Below are positions 3,243-30,913 of a stretch of DNA of 52,627 bases, one piece after another. The translations under genes were made by a program, and so were the position numbers. The notes below the pieces were generated by a model that was not told the origin of the DNA, did not search any database, and was given only the letters and a program-made list of their open reading frames with translations. The stretch covers positions 1 through 52,627 of the forward strand of contig JAPPKS010000009.1 of assembly GCA_028819845.1 (NCBI GenBank), written 5' to 3'. This DNA is from Candidatus Poribacteria bacterium. Its GTDB lineage: Bacteria > Poribacteria > WGA-4E > PCPOR2b. The first letter of the stretch is position 1, and every line of letters begins with the position of its first letter.

Positions 3243-4658
3243 ATGAGTCGAAACGACTTTTTCGTGTTTTGGGTCGTCATTTTGGTGCTTCCCTGCACGA
3301 TTCAGGTTTATGGACAAGTTGAGTCAAGCGAAATCCAGCATACCGAGAATGAATCCGCGCTATACGAATCACCGTCGGGATTGGAAGAGGCAATCCTCCA
3401 GCAAACTAACCTTTCCGGTGTTGGCTTAACCATCATCAACGAAGATCCGTTCTTCCGAATGCAGTTGCAACCGGAGGTCAACCTTGGCAAAATTGGGTTT
3501 GGGTTAGGTTTCGTGGTTTTGTACAATCCGAGCGCAGAAAATGACGAGGATAAAATCTTTACTGAGGATGCTGAGAACTGGGACAATCCCAGTTCCTATC
3601 TGCGAACCGTCCGGTATGTGCGTTTTGGACACCTCGGCGATTCGTTCTACACCCGATTCGGAGAATTGGATTACGTCACCATCGGGTATGGATTCATCAT
3701 GTCCGGCTATTCCAACCACGATCGGCGTGGAATACGCCTGAACCTAAGCAATGACACTAAGAAATACGGGGTAGAGACTGTCATAAACAACGTCAGCAAT
3801 CCGACAGTGTTTGGTGGGCGGACATACATTCGTCCACTGCAGAAAGAGCATGAGTCGGCAATCCTTAACCGTCTAGAATTCGGAGGTACCTACCTAACTG
3901 ATATTGACCCATCATGGGGCAATCAGAATGAAGATCCGCTCGTGGCGTTAGGTGTGGATGTCGGATTCCCGATAATTCACAACAGGCTGATGCGGGTAAA
4001 CTTGTACGATGAAATTGCCTTCCTAAACACAAAACCCACTTCAGATTCATCGGGCATGATTGAGCTCGCAAGCGGAAACGCCATCGGGATCGGTTTATCT
4101 ATTTTTCAAGCCTTGTTCAAGGTGGAGTATCGGACCTTTGGCGAGGCATACCGTCCTACCATTTTTGACTACACCTATGATGCAGCTAAGGCAAATGTGC
4201 CAGACTTTCTGGGAAAGGATACGGACACCCAAATTGACGGGCCAGGACGCGGATTCTTCTCACTGCTAGCCTGGCGGCCGACTCCAATGGTACATCTGCT
4301 AGGCACATTTGAAGATTACAACACGACCGAGCCGAAGTTATACATTGGCGTTACTGAATCTGGCCTGGTAGATAAGATGTCGTTCAGAGCGTTTTATGTC
4401 AAGCGTAACATCGGCGAACCGGATACGGGATACCCGGATGGCATCGGAAGCAAAGACCCATTATTCTTCGAAGATCTGTTCCGCCTTGATGAAAAATCCG
4501 CGTTCACCGTGCGGATTGGGTATGAAGCGTATGCACCCATTGAGGTGGCGGTTATCCGAGAGTTTCGGTTTCGGCAGGTGGAAAAACCGGATAAGAGTTT
4601 TGGCTTCGAGCCAATTCGGAAAACCACAGTCGAGGTAGGAGTGAGTCTCAAGTTCTAA
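3243..4658 (+). CDS. Predicted outer-membrane beta-barrel protein
   Basis: Unrecognised protein of 471 residues. It starts with a signal peptide (hydrophobic stretch about residues 5-20, cleavage likely near VYG-Q). The mature chain has alternating polar/aromatic strands typical of a beta-barrel and ends in VGVSLKF; a C-terminal Phe is the usual signal for outer-membrane insertion by the BAM machinery. No plug or catalytic domain was recognised. It directly follows the ABC permease/ATPase pair, which suggests, without proof, a shared export or lipid-transport role. It could equally be an independent porin. Confidence 0.75.
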   Translation: MSRNDFFVFWVVILVLPCTIQVYGQVESSEIQHTENESALYESPSGLEEAILQQTNLSGVGLTIINEDPFFRMQLQPEVNLGKIGFGLGFVVLYNPSAENDEDKIFTEDAENWDNPSSYLRTVRYVRFGHLGDSFYTRFGELDYVTIGYGFIMSGYSNHDRRGIRLNLSNDTKKYGVETVINNVSNPTVFGGRTYIRPLQKEHESAILNRLEFGGTYLTDIDPSWGNQNEDPLVALGVDVGFPIIHNRLMRVNLYDEIAFLNTKPTSDSSGMIELASGNAIGIGLSIFQALFKVEYRTFGEAYRPTIFDYTYDAAKANVPDFLGKDTDTQIDGPGRGFFSLLAWRPTPMVHLLGTFEDYNTTEPKLYIGVTESGLVDKMSFRAFYVKRNIGEPDTGYPDGIGSKDPLFFEDLFRLDEKSAFTVRIGYEAYAPIEVAVIREFRFRQVEKPDKSFGFEPIRKTTVEVGVSLKF

Positions 4659-12750: not shown

Positions 12751-13785
12751 ATGCAAACTCAATTGATGACGAGTCGCCAACGTGTCCTTGCAGCGTTGCA
12801 AAGAGCACCGGTGGATCGGACGCCCATTTGCAATCCGACATCTGTGGCCACGGTGGAATTGATGGACTTGGTAGATGCGCCGTTCCCTGAGGCAAACCGG
12901 CAGCCGGACCTGATGGCACGGCTAGCAGCGACTGGTTATACTGAGTTAGGATTCGACACAATTATGCCGGTTTTCACTATTATTCAAGAGTCTTCCGCAC
13001 TCGGTTGCAAGATTCAATGGGAACAAAAGGATAACTGGCCCACTGTGAAAATGCGAGAACCGATTTGGGAAGACGTTGAGGACATCAAAATTCCGCCCAA
13101 TCTCTTAACTCACCAAGACACTCGCTGCGTGACCGATGCGATCCAAATCCTCAAAAAGGAGTACGGCGAAGAAGTCGCTGTGATCGGCAAGACGATGGGA
13201 CCCTGGTCACTCGGATACCACTGTTTCGGAGTCGAGCCTTTTCTGCTGCTGTCCTTAGACGATCCGGAAAAAACGAAACTCGCGCTGGATAAGATGAAAG
13301 AAATCACGATAGCGTTTGGGTTAGCACAGATTGAAGCCGGGGCGGATGCGCTAACCTTACCCGATCACGCAACTGGGGATTTGGTCAGCGGCGAGTATTA
13401 TCAGCGGTACTTGCGGGATCTTCACATTGAGTTCGCCGAACGCCTTCCAATCCCGCTTATTCTACATATTTGCGGGCGCACGGTCGACCGTATGGAGTAC
13501 ATCGCACAAACTGGTTTCGCAGCCTTCCATTACGACTCCAAGAATGCCCCGGATGAGTCTATGGCAGTGATGCAGAAGCGAATTGCCCTAGTCGGAAATA
13601 TCAACAATCCCGAAACGTTGTTTGCAAAAGGCCCTGAGGAAGTGCGCCAGGAAGTCTACAAAAATCTTGATGCGGGCGTCGAACTTGTAGGTCCTGAATG
13701 TGCGATTCCGCTGCAAACTTCGATTGAAAACCTAAAAGAGATTCCCGCTGCCGTCAATGATTGGCACCTTCAAAATGCGAGTTAG
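12751..13785 (+). CDS. UroD-family corrinoid methyltransferase (MtaA/MTI-like)
   Basis: A 344-residue uroporphyrinogen-decarboxylase-fold protein with the methyltransferase-type zinc site: H239-x-C241 (in LHICGRT) and C317 (in GPECAIP). True UroD lacks these ligands, so a methyltransferase is much more likely. Family members move methyl groups to or from a corrinoid protein; MtaA and MtbA serve coenzyme M, and some demethylase MTI enzymes are of this type. The corrinoid protein gene follows after 39 bases, and TTAGGAG precedes the ATG. With a pterin-binding methyltransferase later in the island, this enzyme is best read as the substrate-side MTI. The methyl donor is unknown. Confidence 0.87.
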   Translation: MQTQLMTSRQRVLAALQRAPVDRTPICNPTSVATVELMDLVDAPFPEANRQPDLMARLAATGYTELGFDTIMPVFTIIQESSALGCKIQWEQKDNWPTVKMREPIWEDVEDIKIPPNLLTHQDTRCVTDAIQILKKEYGEEVAVIGKTMGPWSLGYHCFGVEPFLLLSLDDPEKTKLALDKMKEITIAFGLAQIEAGADALTLPDHATGDLVSGEYYQRYLRDLHIEFAERLPIPLILHICGRTVDRMEYIAQTGFAAFHYDSKNAPDESMAVMQKRIALVGNINNPETLFAKGPEEVRQEVYKNLDAGVELVGPECAIPLQTSIENLKEIPAAVNDWHLQNAS

Positions 13786-13824
13786 ATTTAAGAAGAATAA
13801 ATTTGAAACTTAAAGAGACACACT

Positions 13825-14589
13825 ATGCCTGAAATTACCGACATCGTAAATGAGTTCATTAGGGATGAAATCGAAGAATACATTGAGCGTGCCGATGAAC
13901 GCACGCGCACTATCGCAATATTTGCCCAAGCAAGTACCGCGATGCAAGCGATTGCTGCCGCACTTGTTGACGGTGACCACCATACCGTGGATCAATTAAC
14001 AAAAGAAGCTTTGGACGCGGGTACCGAGGCCTTGGAGATTATGGACGATGGCCTCATCGCTGGGATGGGCATTGTTGGAATAAAATTTCGAGAAAATTTC
14101 ATTTTCGTCCCGGAAGTCCTCGCTTGTGCACGTGCCATGAAGGCAGGTATGGCATATATTGAACCGATTCTGTCCGCGTCGGGGATTGAGCCGATTGGTA
14201 CCGTTATCATGGGGACAGTGAAAGGAGATCTGCACGATATTGGCAAGAATCTATGCATCATGATGCTTCGCGGCGCAGGATTCGTTGTACACGATTTGGG
14301 CGTCGATACTTCAGACGACGAATTTATTGATGCCGTGGAAGAACACGGTGCGCCGGTGCTAGGAATGTCGGCACTCTTGACTACGACGATGCCCAACATG
14401 GGTAAGACGATTGAAGCTTTCATTGACGAAGATCTCCGCGAAGATGTCAAAATTATGGTAGGTGGCGCACCGGTGACCCAGGAGTTTGCCGATGATATGG
14501 GAGCAGACGGATATGGGAAGGACGCACTTGCGTGTGTGGCGCTGGCGAAGCAACTAGTTGTAGAACTTAGAGACGAAGGAAGGTTATAA
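13825..14589 (+). CDS. Corrinoid (methyl-B12) protein, MtaC/MtbC-like
   Basis: The 254-residue methyl carrier of the island. The N-terminal helical cap domain (about residues 30-120) is followed by a Rossmann-type B12 domain containing the cobalt-binding motif D135-x-H137-x-x-G (GDLHDIGKN). The later signature segments (GMSALLTTTMPNM, VGGAPVTQEFADDMGADGYG) bind the corrinoid tail. His137 would be the lower cobalt ligand. An N-terminal extension of about 30 residues rich in Glu/Asp/Arg precedes the cap. It would accept a methyl group from the UroD-type enzyme and pass it to the pterin-binding enzyme. Confidence 0.93.
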   Translation: MPEITDIVNEFIRDEIEEYIERADERTRTIAIFAQASTAMQAIAAALVDGDHHTVDQLTKEALDAGTEALEIMDDGLIAGMGIVGIKFRENFIFVPEVLACARAMKAGMAYIEPILSASGIEPIGTVIMGTVKGDLHDIGKNLCIMMLRGAGFVVHDLGVDTSDDEFIDAVEEHGAPVLGMSALLTTTMPNMGKTIEAFIDEDLREDVKIMVGGAPVTQEFADDMGADGYGKDALACVALAKQLVVELRDEGRL

Positions 14590-14676
14590 ATGATCCTGCA
14601 CCAGTTTTGCTTAATGCTCCCACCTCACTATTCGGATGAAGCAACTATGCAAAGATTAGCCAAGCAAATGAATTAG
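14590..14676 (+). CDS. Possible 28-residue ORF between corrinoid protein and activator
   Basis: The ATG immediately follows the corrinoid-protein stop, and GAAGGAAGG stands about 9 bases upstream, a good ribosome site. The product (beginning MILHQFCLMLPPHY) has no recognised family. It could be a leader-like coupling peptide, the remnant of a lost gene, or chance. The 100 bases after it hold no clear signal. Confidence 0.25.
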   Translation: MILHQFCLMLPPHYSDEATMQRLAKQMN

Positions 14677-14778
14677 CGCATTGTTGGACTTAATCGCTTA
14701 TCGGCGAAGTTGTCTAGCTCGGTTTTAGTCACTGCCAAAAATCAAGTCTGTGCGTTGAATTTGCGGATAAGATTTATT

Positions 14779-16692
14779 ATGCCGAAGATCGCCAAGGAAG
14801 AATACCGGAAACGGTTGGACAAAATTACGGAATTGTTCGCTAGCATCGTGGGGCACGCCGATGAACAAGCCGCATATAGGTGTCCTTACAAAAACCGGTT
14901 CGATCAATGTACCGCCAAATTCGGCTGTAGAAATCAGCGTAAACCTCGTGAAAAAGGGAAGTCATTGATGTGCGGCGGCGACGATAAGCTAGACTATCGC
15001 GGTGCTTGGGATACTGAGGCCGATGTAGGGGTTTTTATTGAGAGAGATGGCGATTATGGAAAGGGTACCATAACGCATGATGACACAAAGCGTAAACTTA
15101 TAGCCGGCAAAACGGTTTTCGACTATGCTGACGAATTGGCGGTACAGGTGCCGACCTCCTGTTTTCGTACGGGGCAATGTCACGAGTGTATAGTTGAGAT
15201 AAAGCAAGGCATAGAGGCATTACGTCCGCGCAACGAAGCTGAGTCGTTTCTACGGGAAAATTACCGCCTTGCTTGTCAGGCAGTTGTCGAGAACCCTGAT
15301 GTCGATGTACAGTTTTCGCCGCTGCGCAGAAAGCCCAGGATTCTCACACTTACCCAAGAAAAGCCCGTTGAGCTCAAACCGATGGTCACCCGCCAGGGCG
15401 ATACAGTCTACTACGATAGGGAAGCTATCGACACATACCGCGGGCACATTTACGGTCTTGCCATAGATTTGGGTACCACAACCGTCGTAATGGATTTGGT
15501 AAATCTTGAGACCGGCGAAAGCGTAAGCGTCAACTCCTTTGAAAATCCTCAGCGGTTCGGCGGCAGCGATGTGATGCATCGTATTTCATATGATGGCGTG
15601 TTTGCCGGTGAGTTACGCAAGGCGGTTACCAATGCTCTGAATCACGAAATCGCCGAGATGGGAAAACGGTTGGGCTTTGTCCGTCAGGAAATCTACGAGA
15701 TTGTTGTTGCGGGCAACTCGACTATGCGCGATATTTTCTTCAAGCTGGATGTGCAGAGCATCGGCCAAAAGCCCTACAAGTCCGTGATTGAACATGCGTA
15801 CATCGCAGAGGAACTCAACACGACTTCGCTTGTTGAGAAAACACGGCGTTTAGGTCTCCGGGCGAATCCAAGAGCCCGAGTTTATGGGTTGCCGTTGATT
15901 GCAAGCCATGTGGGCGCCGATGTTACAGCCGATTTGGTCGCCATTGACATGGTATCGCAGAAAAAAGCCGTCATGCTAGTAGATGTTGGTACTAACACTG
16001 AAGTAGTTGTGGGACACGCAGGAAGGCTGATAACAGCGTCTTGTCCGGCAGGTCCCGCGTTTGAAGGCGGCGGAATTAAATTCGGTATGCCAGGATACGA
16101 AGGAGCCATCGAGTCTATTCGGTGGGGTGACGGTCATATCAACTATGACACTATTGGCGGTATTGCACCACAAGGAATCTGTGGATCGGGATTAATCGAC
16201 CTGTTGGCAGAACTTCGCCGCCATAATCAGATGACAGCAAAAGGTGTTTTTGCTGATAGAAAACAGTATGACATGACCGTTGTGCCCGAACATGGCATTA
16301 CGCTTTCCCGGGAAGACATTAGCAACTTGGCTCAAGCCAAGGCAGCCAATTACTGCGGACAATTTATTGTCTTGCGAAAGTTCGGTATTGACCCAACGGA
16401 AATCAATCGGCTCTATTTAGCCGGTGGATTCGCAAATTATGTGGATGTTCACAACGCCATCGAAATCGGTTTTCTTGCGCCAGTGTGCGGCGATAGAATC
16501 GTCAAAGTTGGAAACGCGGCGGTGCAGGGCGCGCGGGAAGTTCTCCTATCACGGGAAAAGCGTGACGCTATCGAGTATCTGGTTAAAGGAATCGAACATG
16601 TCGAACTAGAGACAACGCCCGATTTCTTCGAGGTGTTCGTGGAAGGGTGCCAGTTTAAACCCATGCCGGAGGAGTTAGCTGACATGTCATGA
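14779..16692 (+). CDS. Ferredoxin/ASKHA-domain corrinoid activation protein (RACE, DUF4445)
   Basis: Reductive activator that uses ATP to return inactive Co(II) corrinoid to Co(I). It has 637 residues from the ATG at 14779, the first start consistent with the domain order. An unusual Cys-bearing N-terminal segment (C35, C44, C50 and one near 65) precedes a [2Fe-2S] ferredoxin domain with C128-x5-C134-x2-C137 and C166. The large C-terminal ASKHA region follows, with phosphate loops LAIDLGTTTVVMDL, VDVGTNTEVVVGH and LYLAGGFANYVD. The domain make-up matches known activators of O-demethylase and methylamine corrinoid systems. The N-terminal extra cysteines could form another metal site. The start is not certain, since the ribosome site is weak. 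Confidence 0.92.
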   Translation: MPKIAKEEYRKRLDKITELFASIVGHADEQAAYRCPYKNRFDQCTAKFGCRNQRKPREKGKSLMCGGDDKLDYRGAWDTEADVGVFIERDGDYGKGTITHDDTKRKLIAGKTVFDYADELAVQVPTSCFRTGQCHECIVEIKQGIEALRPRNEAESFLRENYRLACQAVVENPDVDVQFSPLRRKPRILTLTQEKPVELKPMVTRQGDTVYYDREAIDTYRGHIYGLAIDLGTTTVVMDLVNLETGESVSVNSFENPQRFGGSDVMHRISYDGVFAGELRKAVTNALNHEIAEMGKRLGFVRQEIYEIVVAGNSTMRDIFFKLDVQSIGQKPYKSVIEHAYIAEELNTTSLVEKTRRLGLRANPRARVYGLPLIASHVGADVTADLVAIDMVSQKKAVMLVDVGTNTEVVVGHAGRLITASCPAGPAFEGGGIKFGMPGYEGAIESIRWGDGHINYDTIGGIAPQGICGSGLIDLLAELRRHNQMTAKGVFADRKQYDMTVVPEHGITLSREDISNLAQAKAANYCGQFIVLRKFGIDPTEINRLYLAGGFANYVDVHNAIEIGFLAPVCGDRIVKVGNAAVQGAREVLLSREKRDAIEYLVKGIEHVELETTPDFFEVFVEGCQFKPMPEELADMS

Positions 16693-16771
16693 CTTTAGAA
16701 AGTGTCGGGCAGCTCACGTACCAGATAAGAGGCCTACAGGAAACCTGACCACATATCTTTAGGAGACGAAG

Positions 16772-17809
16772 ATGAAGCTTAACGGTCTAGAATTCATAAT
16801 TATTGGTGAAAATGTCCACACTACTCGTGTGGTGCGTCGAAAAGGGAAGCTCGTTACGAATAACGCTGACGGCGTCGAATCCATTCGCTATCTAGATAGA
16901 AACAAAAAACGCCGGTATCTCGTCATCCCCGATAGCATCAAGAAAACTCAGGACTACGAGGAAGGACGCATTAAACACGTCAAGATCGCCATTCAGGCAG
17001 CCATGACCGAAAAAAATCCTCATGCCGGTGAAGGGCTCGAGTACCTGATGCGACTAGTGCAACGTCAGTTAGACGCCGGAGCCGATTACTTAGACTTGAA
17101 TGTAGACGAGGTCTCATTGCATCTTGAGGAACAAAAGGCTGCCATGAGATGGCTTGTGCAGACCGTGCAGGAGATGTATTCTATTCCATTGTCGGTGGAC
17201 TCATCCAATACGGAAATCATACAAGCGGGACTCGAGGCCGCTGATGGCAAAGTTGTCCAAACTATGCTAAATTCAGCAGCACCGGAACGCCTTGAAACCC
17301 TAGATCTTGCGAAACAGTATCATACGAGGGTCATTGTTCAAGCAGCGAGCGTAAACGGAATGCCAGAAAACGCCGAAGAGCGGGTGTCCAATGCCTCTTT
17401 CATGGTGGGAAAAGCCTTAGATAAAGGGATTGCGATTCATGATATTTTCATTGACCCCGTAATCTTTCCAATCTCGGTCGACAGCCAATACGGCAATCAC
17501 TGCTTCGATGCGATACGGCAAATCCGCGAGAAATATGGTCCCAATCTCCATATTAGCGGCGGTTTCAGCAACGCCTCATTCGGTTTGCCATGCCGCCGCC
17601 TCATTAACGATGTATTTATGATGTTAGCCATTGACGCCGGTGCGGACAGTGGGATCATCGATCCTGTCACGAGTGACCCTCGAAAGATTATGGCAATGGA
17701 TCGACAGTCAAAGGCCTACAAACTCGCTGAAGATATGCTTCTGGGTAGGGACGAATATTGCGCTAATTTTATAAAAGCATATCGAAAAGGGGAATTGGAG
17801 CTCCGCTAA
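16772..17809 (+). CDS. Pterin-binding (DHPS-fold) methyltransferase, MTII-like
   Basis: A 345-residue TIM barrel of the dihydropteroate-synthase/MetH-pterin family. Diagnostic segments are IIGENVHTTR at the N-terminus, GADYLDLNVDEV, the SVDSSN strand, and LHISGGFSNASFGLP, the pterin/phosphate region typical of corrinoid:tetrahydrofolate methyltransferases. True folate synthases lack the latter form. TTAGGAGACG supplies the ribosome site. In the island it would take the methyl group from the corrinoid protein to tetrahydrofolate, or donate methyl-THF in the reverse direction. The next gene starts three bases on. Confidence 0.9.
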   Translation: MKLNGLEFIIIGENVHTTRVVRRKGKLVTNNADGVESIRYLDRNKKRRYLVIPDSIKKTQDYEEGRIKHVKIAIQAAMTEKNPHAGEGLEYLMRLVQRQLDAGADYLDLNVDEVSLHLEEQKAAMRWLVQTVQEMYSIPLSVDSSNTEIIQAGLEAADGKVVQTMLNSAAPERLETLDLAKQYHTRVIVQAASVNGMPENAEERVSNASFMVGKALDKGIAIHDIFIDPVIFPISVDSQYGNHCFDAIRQIREKYGPNLHISGGFSNASFGLPCRRLINDVFMMLAIDAGADSGIIDPVTSDPRKIMAMDRQSKAYKLAEDMLLGRDEYCANFIKAYRKGELELR

Positions 17810-17812
17810 ACC

Positions 17813-18091
17813 GTGGCTGAATATCAAATATTGTACTGGAAAGGCATTCCAGCCCAGGTGAGAGTTTTTGAGGGAAAGAAAACAATCTCGCGAGAGATGC
17901 CCGCTCGTTTCCAAGCTGACATCGATCGAATCGCAATGCAAGAAGGTTTGTACGGAAGTGACAATTATCTTGACCAATGGGAATGGACCGAGAAACGCCA
18001 GCGGACCGGCGATGCCAAACTAGTATTAGATTCGCTTTTACGTGAACTCGAAACCGATTACGACGATAAATTTAGAAAACCGAAAAATTAA
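17813..18091 (+). CDS. Virulence_fact family small protein
   Basis: A 92-residue protein resembling the Pfam Virulence_fact family (YQILYWKGIPAQVRVFEG, then the LYGSDNYLDQWEW segment). Despite the name, members usually sit among corrinoid methyltransferase and methylene-THF reductase genes in bacteria that demethylate small compounds, so the context fits. It starts with GTG three bases after the pterin methyltransferase stop and is followed eight bases later by the Ldh gene, a tight operon. The molecular function is not known. I am fairly confident of the family from the motif pattern, without a search. Confidence 0.7.
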   Translation: MAEYQILYWKGIPAQVRVFEGKKTISREMPARFQADIDRIAMQEGLYGSDNYLDQWEWTEKRQRTGDAKLVLDSLLRELETDYDDKFRKPKN

Positions 18092-18099
18092 TTCCAATA

Positions 18100-19146
18100 A
18101 TGCCCAAATTCTCACCTGAGACGCTTCGTCAAATCGGGTACCAGCTTTTTGAAGCCGCGGGGTGTAAACCCGAAGATGCGCACGTAGTAGTTAATCACCT
18201 GATCGAATCCAATCTCTTTGGTCATGATTCTCACGGCGCAATTCGGTTTGGCGAATACCTGCGCGCTATTCGAGAAGGCCGGTTCCAACCTCGTGAAACA
18301 CCTGAGACTGTAAGCGAAAACCCATGCACTGCGGTCGTTGACGCCCACGGCGCGCTAGGGCAAATCGGCGCGTCCTATGCGATGAACTTGGCAATTGAAA
18401 AGGCTGGCCGCCACGGTGTTGGCACAGTGACCTTACGGAATACAAGCCATGTTGGGCGCGTGGGCGCCTATCCTTTAATGGCCGCTCAGACAGAGATGAT
18501 TGGTCTTGCCTTTGTCAATGCGGGCCGGCTCGGTTACCAAATAGTTCCCTTTGGAGGCATCGACGGCTGCCTAAGTACCAACCCGATTGCATTTGCCGCC
18601 CCGCGCCGGGAAGCCCCGCCTATTTTTGTTGATATGACTACTTCGGTATCTGCTGAAGGTAAAATTCGGGTTGCTATCAACCAAGGGAAGCAGGTTCCGG
18701 AGGGTTGGATCATCGATGCTCAAGGCAATCCCACCACGGATCCAAAAAAATTTACAGGTCCTCCGCCCGGAGCCATCCTCCCATTAGGCGGAGTAGTAGC
18801 ACACAAGGGTTACGGTTTGAGTATTGTAGTAGAACTCTTGGGCGGTGCCTTGAGCGGTCAGGGTTGTGCCGCTGGTGAACGTTCAATGGCAAGCAATGGC
18901 GTGTTATTTACCGTATACCACATTGAGCATTTCACCACTCTTGATGCTTTCTATAACGAAGTGGAATCACTGCTTCATCACATCAAATCGAGCCGACTAG
19001 CCCCCGGGTTTGTGGAAATCTTAGCGCCTGGTGAACCTGAATTTCGTAACGCTCAACGGAAGACGGTCGAAGGCATTGATATTGATGAGACAACTTGGAA
19101 TAATATCTGCCTAGAAGCTCTCGCCTTTGGGATTAATCTAGAATAA
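18100..19146 (+). CDS. Ldh family (malate/L-sulfolactate/ureidoglycolate-type) dehydrogenase
   Basis: NAD(P)-dependent oxidoreductase of 348 residues that belongs to the Ldh_2 family and not to classical lactate dehydrogenase. Marker segments are NLFGHDSHGAIRF with the active-site His, GTVTLRNTSHVGRVGAYP, FGGIDGCLSTNPIAFA and PLGGVVAHKGYGLS. It would oxidise a 2-hydroxy acid. It lies inside the one-carbon island and probably handles the acid left after demethylation, or a related hydroxy acid. A close paralogue with the same markers is at 51435-52484. The start is ATG at 18100. Confidence 0.9.
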   Translation: MPKFSPETLRQIGYQLFEAAGCKPEDAHVVVNHLIESNLFGHDSHGAIRFGEYLRAIREGRFQPRETPETVSENPCTAVVDAHGALGQIGASYAMNLAIEKAGRHGVGTVTLRNTSHVGRVGAYPLMAAQTEMIGLAFVNAGRLGYQIVPFGGIDGCLSTNPIAFAAPRREAPPIFVDMTTSVSAEGKIRVAINQGKQVPEGWIIDAQGNPTTDPKKFTGPPPGAILPLGGVVAHKGYGLSIVVELLGGALSGQGCAAGERSMASNGVLFTVYHIEHFTTLDAFYNEVESLLHHIKSSRLAPGFVEILAPGEPEFRNAQRKTVEGIDIDETTWNNICLEALAFGINLE

Positions 19147-19198
19147 TGGTGTACCAAAGCAATGTAATGGTCGAAAATTTAAAATTAGAGCGCTTCAA

Positions 19199-20200
19199 AT
19201 GAGGACGTTTCTTGAGAGGTTAGCCGACCCAAGCCCTATGATTTACGACGGCGGATTTGGCTCAGAACTGTTTGCCAGGGGGATAGAGCTGACGAATAGC
19301 GCGCTTGCAAACGAACGGCACGCAGATGTGGTAATTGATATTCATTCTGATTATATTGAAGCAGGTGTTAATGCCCTAGGAACAAACACATTTGTAGCTT
19401 CAAGGCTGCATCTTGAAATGGCAGGAATAGAGGGACTTGCGGCCGACAATATCGCCTGGTTGGCGGTAGAACATGCCAAGGTAGCAGTTGAAAAAGCTGG
19501 CAAGGAAATTTATATAGCGGGATCGATTGGGCCTTCGCCCGGCGCAATTGAAGCCGATAGCGGCGATATAGATTTTGGAATCCCGAACGCTGTTGTCAGG
19601 GATGTTTACGAGAGGCTAGCGAACATTCTGGCAGATGGCGGCGTTGACTTTTTCTGTATAGAAACTATGTTTTCCGCGAAGGAAGCCGCAATAGCAGTCG
19701 ATGTTACCAGAAAATACGGGCTTCCTATCGCCGTAAACTTGACATATAAGCACACGAAGGACCGCGCTAGCGGCAATGTCGTCTACCGTACAGATTGGGG
19801 GCATTCGGCGGCGGATTTGTTAGGTATCTTGTCAGGCGGGGAGTTCTCCAATGGTGATAATCTCTTGGATTATGTCCACATATTAGGTCTAAATTGTGGC
19901 GCGGAAGTCAAGCACGAGCAACACACTGGGATGCCCTATGCGATAAATGGAATACAACAGTTGAAGGAAGCATTGGCGATTAACAATGTAAAACCGAAAC
20001 GGTTGATGGCTTATCCAAATGCAGGTATGGCACGCCTGGACGAGAATCAGCGTACATATTATTCGCAATCCGCAGAAGAAATGGTGATTTACTTACCAAC
20101 TCTTCTCCAAGCAGGTGCATATTTTGTCGGTGGATGCTGCGGCACTGGACTTTCGCACATTAAAGCCTTTCGTGAAATTATCTCCCCGATAAACAAATGA
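19199..20200 (+). CDS. Homocysteine S-methyltransferase family protein
   Basis: A 333-residue TIM barrel of the BHMT/MetH-N type. The zinc site is complete: C233 (LNCG) and C313-C314 (GGCCGTG). The N-terminal DGGFGSEL segment is where homocysteine-binding residues lie. It methylates a thiol, usually homocysteine to methionine, using a betaine-like donor, S-methylmethionine or a methyl-corrinoid partner. It closes the island 52 bases after the Ldh gene and could act as the methyl sink for the corrinoid route. The usual MetH B12 and activation domains are absent, so any corrinoid would be the 13825 protein. Confidence 0.88.
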   Translation: MRTFLERLADPSPMIYDGGFGSELFARGIELTNSALANERHADVVIDIHSDYIEAGVNALGTNTFVASRLHLEMAGIEGLAADNIAWLAVEHAKVAVEKAGKEIYIAGSIGPSPGAIEADSGDIDFGIPNAVVRDVYERLANILADGGVDFFCIETMFSAKEAAIAVDVTRKYGLPIAVNLTYKHTKDRASGNVVYRTDWGHSAADLLGILSGGEFSNGDNLLDYVHILGLNCGAEVKHEQHTGMPYAINGIQQLKEALAINNVKPKRLMAYPNAGMARLDENQRTYYSQSAEEMVIYLPTLLQAGAYFVGGCCGTGLSHIKAFREIISPINK

Positions 20201-20472: not shown

Positions 20473-23010
20473 ATGTCCGATTCGTTTGATGAATTTAGAG
20501 AAAATCGTCCACACGGACAATCTAACGTCACCATTGTTACTCTCGATTTGGGGCGTTGGATTCATGGCGAATTGCCCAATCAGATTGTAGAATTGGCACG
20601 CAATGAACTTCAAGGCGGACAATTAGAGAACTGGTTGCGAGGTGCGTGGGTACGAGGATTTGCAGGGGATTTACATCTACACATAACAACCTACAATGAA
20701 GACTTCATCGTAAACGGCGCGTATAAAAATCATCCTATTGAGGCCGCGGTCCGCGCCGCTGTTGATGCGGGTCTCATTGCGTTGGAAGAAGCCATAAAAA
20801 TGCAACGCTGTTCTGACGAGGCAAAGGAAATCCTGACACTTGATTCCGGGCAGCAATCCGAAGCGTTGGGGACGTATTACTTAAACTTCCCTTTTACCGA
20901 GAGGGGCGCCGAACCAATATTTGCGGCGAAGGCTATCAACGGAAGCTGGGGATTCTTCAACCGCGCAGTCTTTAATCTGTTTTTCAATCCGGATAAAGGT
21001 TCAGGGAGGCGTATTGAGGGAAATGATTATTTGGGGGTAGTTGAATCAATTGCGGATCTCAAGAACGGCGTGGAAAATGTACGAACCTATGAGTTTGGCC
21101 CTGGAAACCTTAACGAAATGGTCGCGTTAATTGCAGACGCCGATGAATGGCGTCTCAGCCGCGTTTACGCAGTCCGCGGTAAGTTCGGTGAAAGTGAACT
21201 GCGCGGAGAACCCGCCCTTGTGGTCGAAGGTGCCAAAAACCCAGTTTTGATAGGTCGCTCTCAGTCAGGTCTTCCCGCTGTCGGTGAATTCACTCAAGCC
21301 GTTGGAGAATTCTGCTTTGGACCGGGAGGCGGCGAAGGCAAATACCGGGTTGGACTCTTGCCGGTTAATTTTGAGGAGGCGCGCTGCAATTCAATTCCTC
21401 AAGGTACAGCGAAAGTAGTCGCCTATGCCTATCAGTCCTACGACTACGGAAAGATTCCGAGTGATTCGGATGTGGTTGACGTTTTTGACCAAAACCGCCC
21501 TGAGACGAGACGCTTGCAACGAGATGCCGCGGACCTAATCGGAAAAATGGTCAGTCACGGCGAGTTTGAACCTTACGTGAACCCAATCGCTGCAGAACGG
21601 CGCGCCTCACAGGAAGCGCAACATTTGGAGGCGCGATTTGAATCCATTCCTGAAATTTCCGACCCCTTGTTAGAAACCGCCAACAAAAAGGCTAAATTCA
21701 CACTTTCAGATATCAAAGCCGACAGCGGCGGCAAAGTGGGACATACCACACCGCCTCACCTGTTTCGGTATGTTGCGGAGGCTAGCCTGCAAGAAGGGAA
21801 AGATGCAGGGCTAATTTTTGAAACGTCCGAAATAATCGAAGTCGGCGACGATGGGCATCTATTGATGAGTCATAACCGTGGCGCCGACAACAATGATATT
21901 CATCTTTTCGCTTACCGTACTTTTTTCCGGCAAGTGTGGGTAGCGGAGGTATTGGGACATAAGTGGTATGGTTTGGGGCAGGATTTAGTCGGTGAAACTA
22001 CGGCTGGACACCCTACCGAAGAATTGGCAAACCTTAACGATGCTTTCCTCAAATTATTGCCCAAATTCCTTCCTACTGTGGAACGTGCGCATATAGGTCG
22101 GCTAGAAAATGCCTATAACGTGTGGAAGACTGGTGAAGGACAAGGGCATAAAGTACTTCACGTTTTCTCAGGAAACATCTCGGGACAAGGTCCCGGCTTT
22201 GCGGAACTTCCGTTGGTTCGCCCTGGCAGAATTGGGTTGCTGGCAATTGACAAAACAGGTCCCTCAGCTTTTAATTTGCCAATATGGTGGAGCCTAAATC
22301 AAGCATCAGCATCGGGCGCCCTCACTTCCTATCTCAACCGGACCGGGGGAGTAGGCTGCGTACTGGAGATTTGGGATGTGGAACATCATCGTCGAATTTT
22401 CTTAGATTTCAAGAGTGAAGCAGAAATTGCACAGCATTTACTTGGCGCGGTCGAAAGGTTTAACATCAAGCGAATTTGGAGCCGTCGAGCGAAAAACTGG
22501 AACTCAGAAAGCCCATCGGACGGACTGGGTGAGGTGCTTTTAGCGGCCTCCACAGAAAAGCTCGCGGTCATTACCGGCGGAGAATACCGAGGGAAAGATG
22601 ACCCTGTTTTGCTTGCCGTGGAACCTTTGGCGGACGCACTCAACCTATTCATGCGTGACTGCTTTTATATGACCCAGGGAGATGGCCGAGGTTCTCATTT
22701 CATGTTCCCGACGCCGCTGCCCTTCCAAGATGCTATCGCTACGGTCAACAGCCGCGCCGTGGCGGTGTCCGCTTGGGTAAGTATTAATGCTGACGGTCAG
22801 ATCTGTGGGTTGCAGGACGTTTTTTCGGATGCAATCTACGAAACCGCGCGGGATCGAGCTTACCGGTTCAATAAAGCAATCTGGGATGCTCAAGGTGGCA
22901 ACTTTATTCCCGTCGGTGTAGGTTCAGCCAAGGTAGAACAATCCTATCCTCTGGCAAAAACGCTGGACCGCATCACTGCCTCCAATTCCGAGTTTGCGTC
23001 CAAGCACTAG
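20473..23010 (+). CDS. Tandem-duplicated archaeal-type fructose-1,6-bisphosphate aldolase/phosphatase
   Basis: FBPA/P (class V FBPase) enzymes both condense triose phosphates and hydrolyse FBP, the one-way entry to gluconeogenesis; they are about 360-400 residues. This 845-residue protein holds two copies. The C-terminal copy (about 408-845) keeps the active-site set: D417, H424 (GHT), D459-D460 (GDD), Q503-D504, D593-K594 and Y705-R-G-K708-D709-D710. The N-terminal copy (about 18-390) follows the same order (TLDLGRWIHG, GDLHL, RSQSGLPAVGE, then a FEP-containing tail) but lacks the DD pair, the GQD, the DK and the Schiff-base Lys. It is probably structural or allosteric. An excellent GGAGGTGA precedes the ATG. 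Confidence 0.88.
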   Translation: MSDSFDEFRENRPHGQSNVTIVTLDLGRWIHGELPNQIVELARNELQGGQLENWLRGAWVRGFAGDLHLHITTYNEDFIVNGAYKNHPIEAAVRAAVDAGLIALEEAIKMQRCSDEAKEILTLDSGQQSEALGTYYLNFPFTERGAEPIFAAKAINGSWGFFNRAVFNLFFNPDKGSGRRIEGNDYLGVVESIADLKNGVENVRTYEFGPGNLNEMVALIADADEWRLSRVYAVRGKFGESELRGEPALVVEGAKNPVLIGRSQSGLPAVGEFTQAVGEFCFGPGGGEGKYRVGLLPVNFEEARCNSIPQGTAKVVAYAYQSYDYGKIPSDSDVVDVFDQNRPETRRLQRDAADLIGKMVSHGEFEPYVNPIAAERRASQEAQHLEARFESIPEISDPLLETANKKAKFTLSDIKADSGGKVGHTTPPHLFRYVAEASLQEGKDAGLIFETSEIIEVGDDGHLLMSHNRGADNNDIHLFAYRTFFRQVWVAEVLGHKWYGLGQDLVGETTAGHPTEELANLNDAFLKLLPKFLPTVERAHIGRLENAYNVWKTGEGQGHKVLHVFSGNISGQGPGFAELPLVRPGRIGLLAIDKTGPSAFNLPIWWSLNQASASGALTSYLNRTGGVGCVLEIWDVEHHRRIFLDFKSEAEIAQHLLGAVERFNIKRIWSRRAKNWNSESPSDGLGEVLLAASTEKLAVITGGEYRGKDDPVLLAVEPLADALNLFMRDCFYMTQGDGRGSHFMFPTPLPFQDAIATVNSRAVAVSAWVSINADGQICGLQDVFSDAIYETARDRAYRFNKAIWDAQGGNFIPVGVGSAKVEQSYPLAKTLDRITASNSEFASKH

Positions 23011-23464: not shown

Positions 23465-24070
23465 ATGGGTGTTAAAGAACGCAGAACAAGGGAAAAAGAG
23501 CAGTTACGGCGTCAGATTCTTGCTGCCGCGCGAGAGTTGTTCGTCAATGAAGGCTACGAAAACGTCTCTATGCGAAAGATTGCCGATAAGATTGAGTATT
23601 CGCCGACGATGATTTACCTCTACTTCAATGGAAAAGCAGATCTTTTGGATTCCGTTTGCCAAGAAACTCTCCTGAACTTATTGAATACATTTGAACTACT
23701 GAAAAAGGATAAAAGCGACCCCGTTGAGAACCTGAGAAAAAGTGGTAAAGCCTATGTCGAATTCGGTCTAAAGTACCCGCAGGATTACAAGCTGACATTT
23801 GTCGTCCGTCCTCAATACCAGAAGGGTTTAGGTCTGCCAGAAGGATCGGTTGGCGAAAGAGTGTTTAATTACCTGAGTGCAATGGTCTCCGAATGTGTTC
23901 GACAGAAGACCTTCCGCCAAGTGGATGTCGAAATCACCGGTCAAGCACTGTGGTCAGCAGTTCACGGAGTTACCATGCTCCTGATTGATTTCCCCGATTT
24001 CCCCTGGACAGCCAAAGATAAATTGATTGACACGGTGATACACACGATGATCGGAGGTTTGAAGGCGTAG
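23465..24070 (+). CDS. TetR family transcriptional regulator, WHG-type C-terminal domain
   Basis: A 201-residue repressor-type protein. The N-terminal helix-turn-helix is typical (ILAAARELFVNEGYENVSMR, then IADKIEYSPTMIYLYF; about residues 19-57). The C-terminal ligand/dimer domain contains ALWSAVHGVTMLLID, which fits the TetR_C_33 (WHG) group. Its own promoter carries palindromes, and one palindrome core recurs ahead of the lipoprotein gene, so it probably regulates itself and 24277-25839. The ligand is unknown. The ATG at 23465 has no good Shine-Dalgarno, suggesting low translation from a strong promoter. Confidence 0.92.
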   Translation: MGVKERRTREKEQLRRQILAAARELFVNEGYENVSMRKIADKIEYSPTMIYLYFNGKADLLDSVCQETLLNLLNTFELLKKDKSDPVENLRKSGKAYVEFGLKYPQDYKLTFVVRPQYQKGLGLPEGSVGERVFNYLSAMVSECVRQKTFRQVDVEITGQALWSAVHGVTMLLIDFPDFPWTAKDKLIDTVIHTMIGGLKA

Positions 24071-29575: not shown

Positions 29576-30619
29576 CTATTCATCCAACACCTTTGCAAGA
29601 TAAAACACAGATTTACCACAGAGTTGTTCTATCTCTTGCATGGCATCGTTTAATTGTGCCTTTCGAGGACATTGGAGCAGGAGTCTATCCGCCGTAAGGG
29701 TAACATATCGGTGCTGTGTTTTGTGCGAATATTGAGCTTGTTGTTCCCCATCTGTGGTGAGTCGATATCCATCTCCCAATTCGAACGTCTGACGCACTCT
29801 CTCCCAATCCAAGTTCTTGTACAATGCTTTTGCAGGCAACTCCCTCGGTGTAGGCGTCTGAGATGTCTGAGTGGGTTCATCTTCATCCGAAAAGTAATCT
29901 GCAATATCGCTCGATTTTTGAAAGCCATTGTCTAAGCCGTCAGAAACCTGTTCATCAATTGTGTGTATCTGCTGATCTCGAATGTTCTCACCCTGACTTA
30001 TCGCTAGTAAATCGTAAATTACCCATTGTATCGCTTCGTGCTCATCCCGTCCAAGTTGAGATTGGGTAGACACGGTTTCTAGCGTACGAACACAAATGTT
30101 CAAGATGAGTGGATGGAAATTAAGTGATGCTGGTTCAGCAAGATCAAAAAACATTCGCGTAACTACTGCAATCTCCGCTTTTTCCCTAGCGCCAATACGT
30201 TTTAGCCGCGTTTCGCAGGCTTTAAGCGACTGGGAAATTAGTTGGAGGAAATTGGGTGTAATCAGGCAGGGCAGCACTTCGTCGCGGAATTTTTCAGAAA
30301 TCGTTTCCATCCAATCCTCGCCTCGCGTCAATTCGTCCTGGTCTTCGGATCGCACGAAGTTTGGAGGGGGGAGGTGGAGCAATTCACGTATTGCTTGATA
30401 GAGGCGCTCTGTATCAAATCTGACTTTCTCTAGTTCAGGTTCGTTAACTAGCAACCCGCTTTTCATAATTCTGTCTTGTAACTGTTCTCCATCTGATTTT
30501 GCACTCTCTAGCATGCGCTGCTTTCTGAATGCCATCTGCCGCTGCCGGGATTTTCCAACCTGATTCCGTTTCGCACGTTTATGTGCAATATTGAGTTGCC
30601 GATTCTTTTTTCTCGCCAT
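29576..30619 (-). CDS. Hypothetical protein with a highly basic N-terminus
   Basis: Unrecognised 347-residue protein. I prefer ATG at 30619 (MARKKNRQLN...), because the upstream extension has no ribosome site and the basic segment makes a natural N-terminus. Residues 1-45 are Lys/Arg/Gln-rich, suitable for RNA or ribosome contact. The middle (about 60-230) is mostly helical. A Ser/Thr/Asp/Glu-rich linker (about 235-275) leads to a C-terminal domain (about 280-347) of roughly 70 residues. There is no catalytic motif. It is co-oriented with the 34-residue basic ORF 18 bases downstream. The region 30701-30913 up to lon holds no gene that I can support. Confidence 0.65.
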   Translation of the reverse strand: MARKKNRQLNIAHKRAKRNQVGKSRQRQMAFRKQRMLESAKSDGEQLQDRIMKSGLLVNEPELEKVRFDTERLYQAIRELLHLPPPNFVRSEDQDELTRGEDWMETISEKFRDEVLPCLITPNFLQLISQSLKACETRLKRIGAREKAEIAVVTRMFFDLAEPASLNFHPLILNICVRTLETVSTQSQLGRDEHEAIQWVIYDLLAISQGENIRDQQIHTIDEQVSDGLDNGFQKSSDIADYFSDEDEPTQTSQTPTPRELPAKALYKNLDWERVRQTFELGDGYRLTTDGEQQAQYSHKTQHRYVTLTADRLLLQCPRKAQLNDAMQEIEQLCGKSVFYLAKVLDE

Positions 30620-30913
30620 TTTTGATCCGGATGCCACGGTGTCAGTGCGCGTTGTTCCAATTTGTTGGATCGAACGCAGGAAAGTATACAAAATGAGCAC
30701 AAAAATGTCAACACAAGGATTTCTAGGTTATGGTATGAAATCTCAAGCGTAAAATGTAGCCCAAATAGATTCCGAATCCTTATCAATTCAAATGATCACG
30801 CCCTCATCTTTCGCGCAACGATCCTGTGCGGAAGCGTTTTGGATTTCACGTTAGTTGGACTGTGAAGGTTTAAATTCTGTCCGAATATTCCTTCCATCCA
30901 AATGCACCCTGTT

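Follow-up and report, generated by a model that had tools for sequence, protein, structure and literature searches.

What is made by a gene that is double the length usual for its family, and what each of its halves may do, are the questions raised by one locus of the Candidatus Poribacteria window (the whole stretch of 52,627 nucleotides analysed). The encoded protein belongs to the FBP aldolase/phosphatases (FBPA/P, or class V FBPases), a family usually associated with archaea and thermophiles. Its members are normally single-domain, as had been assumed: the chains of the known enzymes measure 362-407 residues, and those of single-domain proteins from Acidobacteriota 364-412 aa. The original prediction described the gene as an intact catalytic copy fused behind a dead copy. 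The ORF is real and open, and is organized as follows.

20473..23010, + strand: double-domain FBPA/P gene, an open ORF of 845 aa with no stop; orthologues number seven (844-866 aa, 64-69% identical)
20473..21684, + strand: N-half, degenerate FBPase_3 domain, residues 1-404 (homology about 18-395), identified by Pfam, hhalign, AF2, Foldseek and omega
21685..23010, + strand: C-half, catalytic FBPase_3 domain, residues 405-845, identified by Pfam (1.2e-54) and 49 invariant columns

The whole protein matches the Pfam profile PF01950 (FBPase_3) in three stretches (E 1.3e-71). When PDB sequences were searched with phmmer, FBPA/P entries were the only significant matches, and in one stretch the N-half sequence RSQSGLPAVGE was aligned onto the Thermoproteus neutrophilus enzyme. 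Searched alone, both halves pass the PF01950 gathering cut-off of 25 bits, the C-half with 186 bits and the N-half (residues 1-396) with 61 bits (E 1.2e-16). From D11 to the C-terminus, the N-half is also aligned by hhalign to single-domain relatives (348 columns; probability 97.2%, E 3.5e-11). An AF2 model of the N-half (29 sequences, pLDDT 76, pTM 0.82), not independent of homology since its alignment took in single-domain relatives, has as its seven best PDB matches in Foldseek all seven FBPA/P entries (E 1e-20 to 1e-22, TM 0.64-0.77); the next match is unrelated (E 9e-4). The Pfam match is independent. A mismatch with the FBPA/P fold, in HMM-HMM comparison or in structure, had been named as what would speak against a repeated family domain in the N-half; the fold was matched in both. 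The gene encodes a covalent fusion of two class V FBPase domains, both halves being members of the family. The AF2 model of the full 845-aa chain, obtained from a three-sequence alignment, has a pLDDT of 37. The whole protein scores 231 bits with the NCBIfam bifunctional equivalog NF041126 (FBP_aldo_phos), and does not reach the cut-off of 520.

Other proteins of this type were sought in a genome-contig scan, in the phylum of the window (85 genomes) and in 396 Acidobacteriota genomes. The scan provided two orthologues from Acidobacteria MAGs, at 67-69% identity. PF01950 matches are found in 48 of the 396 Acidobacteriota genomes; seven host a double-length protein, and the rest mostly feature one single-domain copy. 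The search for further long two-domain proteins, suggested at the outset, has thus provided seven orthologues, all in Acidobacteriota. The eight double proteins, from eight genomes and two phyla, align end to end, and an insertion and deletions described below are common to all. No separate single-domain FBPA/P copy was seen in double-bearing genomes. Unusual length is all that was found to favour a chimeric assembly, a frameshift fusion or a decaying gene. Any of these is extremely improbable, given eight proteins of the same architecture with no stops and pairwise omega (dN/dS) values well under 1 in both halves, and an assembly artefact is ruled out by the eight proteins themselves. Among the double proteins omega is 0.09-0.19 for the N-halves and 0.05-0.13 for the C-halves, and identity is 58-95% and 68-98%, respectively. 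Judging from its omega, the N-half is therefore maintained by purifying selection as a functional domain, and is not decaying.

In the small phylum to which the window belongs, PF01950 proteins were found in the window genome only (1/85), and horizontal transfer of the double gene is therefore likely. N-halves form one clade and C-halves another, each with a support of 100/100; hence the two-domain architecture arose once within the sampled doubles. The duplication and fusion initially proposed are borne out as far as the pairing of a degenerate and a catalytic domain is concerned, on the grounds of profiles, fold and eight doubles. A lineage-specific duplication, in which N- and C-halves would be sisters, is compatible with the tree (AU p 0.38) but not demonstrated by it, the branches being long. 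What is supported is that duplication and fusion, or the fusion of two family members, gave rise to the pair.

The residues on which the argument turns are listed below. Equivalent positions, in brackets, follow the numbering of S. tokodaii ST0318.

21721..21744, + strand: C-half D417 and H424 (D11, H18), metal ligand positions, invariant
21847..21852, + strand: C-half D459-D460 (D52-D53), metal ligand positions, invariant
21979..21984, + strand: C-half Q503-D504 (Q94-D95), invariant
22000..22164, + strand: insertion of about 55 aa, C-half residues about 510-564, between Q94-D95 and S102-G103-N104; in 8/8 doubles and in no single-domain member examined
22249..22254, + strand: C-half D593-K594 (D131-K132), invariant
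22585..22602, + strand: C-half Schiff-base segment Y705-x-G-K708-D709-D710 (Y228..K231-D232-D233), invariant
22612..22623, + strand: C-half LAVE, site of a deletion of about 5 residues removing the V238-R239-x-Q241 equivalent, in 8/8 C-halves
22687..22698, + strand: C-half R739-G-S-H742 (R265-G-S-H268), of which the N-half retains the G only
20902..20916, + strand: N-half RGAEP, residues 144-148, the R120..E123-P loop; R120 and E123 in 35/35 single-domain proteins, 8/8 N-halves and 0/8 C-halves
21256..21288, + strand: N-half RSQSGLPAVGE, residues 262-272, the family-invariant R239-x-Q241...P245-A246; RSQSGLPA[VI]GE in 8/8 N-halves

All the C-half residues originally singled out are present and aligned with family invariants. 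The metal ligand positions D11, H18, D52, D53, Q94, D131, D232 and D233 are conserved in 8/8 C-halves, and so are K708 and Y705, the equivalents of the Schiff-base Lys231 and of Tyr228. The C-half set further includes Y90, D95, G103, N104, K132 and R265, and 49 columns are invariant over the eight C-halves and 17 single-domain proteins. The description of this copy as intact is accurate for metal, Schiff-base and catalytic residues, but not for the rest of the domain. The insertion falls in the presumed lid region, and the RFDGPP segment is lost. The R239-x-Q241...P245-A246 segment, located just after the Schiff-base lysine and found in 35/35 single-domain proteins, is deleted or replaced in all eight C-halves. 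The loss of R-x-Q is independent of gap placement, because the replacement (LAVEPLA or LSVEPLA) carries no Arg or Gln at those positions.

The N-half has lost H18, D52, Y90, Q94-D95, G103-N104, D131-K132, R265 and the Schiff-base loop with Y228 and K231-D232, which is deleted in the alignment with single-domain members. Metal and Schiff-base residues had been reported as replaced in this half; most are, with the exception of D25 (D11) and D66 (D53), the only residues of this catalytic set kept in 8/8 N-halves. RSQSGLPAVGE, taken at first for a segment repeated in both halves, belongs to the N-half only, the C-half having lost it. An allosteric sensor, in which a partial sugar-phosphate pocket of the N-half would switch the C-half, could find a remnant ligand site in D25, D66, R262 and Q264, and would fit with the conservation of the N-half. 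Most phosphate and metal ligands are nevertheless gone from this half, together with the Schiff-base loop, and a regulatory domain of this kind is rather improbable.

Both halves were mapped onto 35 single-domain sequences, in which 84 positions are invariant. Forty of these are conserved in all C-halves but not in all N-halves, 12 show the reverse, 12 are conserved in both sets and 20 in neither. Complementary loss across the 84 positions is not significant (Fisher p 0.21), and a general pattern of this sort was dropped; the argument is therefore one about the R-x-Q segment only. R120, E123, G136, F146, P149, G154, P183, R239, Q241, P245 and A246 are found in 8/8 N-halves and 0/8 C-halves. 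By strict count, 16 of the 84 invariants, including D44, R330 and Y347, are lost from both halves, and substrate handling may therefore differ. The catalytic residues are those of the C-half, and a conserved polar segment belonging to the same fold has been retained by the N-half. A dead copy next to an intact one is, from the alignments, better described as two halves from each of which different parts have been lost.

Single-domain FBPA/P proteins are common in the sampled Acidobacteriota (about 10% of the 396 genomes; L008-L037, L043-L045). They are of the same family, and of the same phylum as 7/8 doubles, and share about 30% identity with the C-half; in contrast to the doubles, they consist of one domain with 84/84 invariants in place. 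L043, L044 and L045 form a distinct single-domain subclade, in which RFDGPP is replaced by GAFCLP or GPFCLP and 4-6 extra residues are inserted ahead of the E-R-x-x-E-P loop.

Both halves are homologous to the enzymes of S. tokodaii (ST0318; 1umg, 3r1m) and T. neutrophilus (3t2b-3t2g), and metal, Schiff-base and Tyr residues of the C-half occur in the same order. Unlike these single-domain enzymes, the protein has two domains per chain, one of which is degenerate; its C-half differs by the missing R239-x-Q241...PA and the additional insertion, and the equivalog cut-off is not attained. The homo-octamer of single-domain subunits known for bifunctional FBPA/P is excluded here, as the chain holds two domains. 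Q241 and R265 are listed among the substrate contacts of the known FBPA/P structures.

We envisage, at somewhat under even chances, a covalent pseudoenzyme/enzyme pair with one composite active site per fused unit, still making F6P from triose phosphates. The double protein would run the gluconeogenic reaction, in which DHAP and GAP are converted to FBP, and FBP to F6P and Pi. In the ancestral homo-oligomer the R-x-Q segment would have reached the pocket of the neighbouring subunit, and that interface would now lie between an N-half and a C-half. In the least certain step, the N-half would lend its R-x-QSGLPA segment to the substrate pocket of the C-half, a role proposed in view of the deletion of this segment from the C-half. 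Of the two sites in each fused unit, one would then be composite and active, and the other dead. Reciprocal degeneration, tentatively suggested by these paired losses, may have turned a homo-oligomer into an obligate internal heterodimer, in which the N-half supplies R-x-QSGLPA in trans and neither half works alone.

Were the sharing of the segment to fail, the N-half would be a scaffold or a regulator; the initial suggestion, that it may regulate the enzyme or give a different oligomer, would then be conceivable. As a structural scaffold it would complete the oligomer and stabilise the C-half; R-x-QSGLPA and ER..EP would be kept as parts of the subunit interface or of the fold. The site of the C-half would work without these segments or with substitutes, such as E717 or Y825. 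The retained fold and the structural-looking Gly, Pro and Phe residues among the N-only invariants (G136, F146, P149, G154, P183, P245, A246) speak for such a role. R239 and Q241 are however polar, and invariant in 35/35 single-domain proteins and 8/8 N-halves, and a purely structural role leaves unexplained the deletion found in the C-half beside a complete metal site. The scaffold is on balance unlikely, though worth serious consideration.

The genomic context bears on whether the gluconeogenic reaction has been kept. FBPA/P is considered to be an ancestral enzyme of gluconeogenesis (Say and Fuchs 2010, as cited in PMC12168267 and PMC4535450). In one clade of orthologues a pyruvate phosphate dikinase gene is located directly downstream of the double gene (L002 10206-12947, L003 12534-15302, L040 10304-12964); the products score 1179-1239 bits with TIGR01828 (cut-off 843), and the association suits gluconeogenesis. 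Upstream, on the opposite strand, genes resembling OleABCD (long-chain olefin) were recognized by eye in the same contigs (L002 2385-7432, L003 4700-9275, L040 2687-7462). Directly upstream of the double gene, the window features the following cluster, recognized by profile matches.

12751-20200: corrinoid-dependent methyl-transfer cluster
starts 12751: URO-D methyltransferase
starts 13825: B12-binding protein
starts 14710: RACo-type activator
starts 16772: pterin-binding methyltransferase
starts 18100: malate/lactate-type dehydrogenase
starts 19199: homocysteine S-methyltransferase

These neighbours have no clear functional link to the double gene. A TetR-family regulator is encoded downstream (23465-24070), and two long window ORFs have no Pfam match at E 1e-5 (3243-4658, 471 aa; 29576-30700, 374 aa). 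With the same metal and lysine chemistry the protein might act on another phosphorylated ketose, or perform one step only. The lid-region insertion, the loss of R-x-Q and RFDGPP from the C-half, a score below the equivalog cut-off, and window neighbours that are corrinoid methyl-transfer rather than gluconeogenic genes are all in line with a changed reaction. This is judged improbable, set against the completeness of the metal, Lys and Tyr residues and the dikinase gene that follows the double gene in L002, L003 and L040.

Rival enzymes were also monitored, the search covering class I and GlpX FBPases, class II FBA and classical class I FBA. None of the four was found in the window genome (96.6% complete), which encodes two DeoC-family proteins, one LsrF-like and one DeoC, and one PFK that might be reversible. 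Class I FBPase is absent in 7/8 double-bearing genomes, and GlpX in 8/8. Class II FBA is however missing in 67 of the 83 genomes searched in the phylum of the window, the window genome included, and the relatives lacking it also lack FBPA/P. The absence of rival enzymes is therefore weak evidence for activity, and the notion that the protein is active as the sole FBP aldolase of the genome is weakened.

The double FBPA/P is a real and conserved protein, of which the literature search returned no description, as had been surmised. Neither double-domain FBPA/P nor inter-subunit residues yielded anything usable in the literature searched, where no such case is named. We know of no pseudoenzyme/enzyme pair or tandem fusion within this family. 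Pairs of this kind are known more generally, for example where an inactive paralogous subunit completes an active partner, and the double FBPA/P likewise has a dead paralogue kept under selection beside a live one.

The N-half provides a clear example of selection preserving a pseudoenzyme domain. Proteins of this type may be mis-annotated, as they match the FBPase_3 profile but not the NCBIfam equivalog rule. FBPA/P is known for one active site that remodels itself for two reactions. If the parts of this site are distributed over a catalytic and a degenerate domain, which is directly testable by mutating each half alone, the double protein would reveal which parts each subunit must supply.
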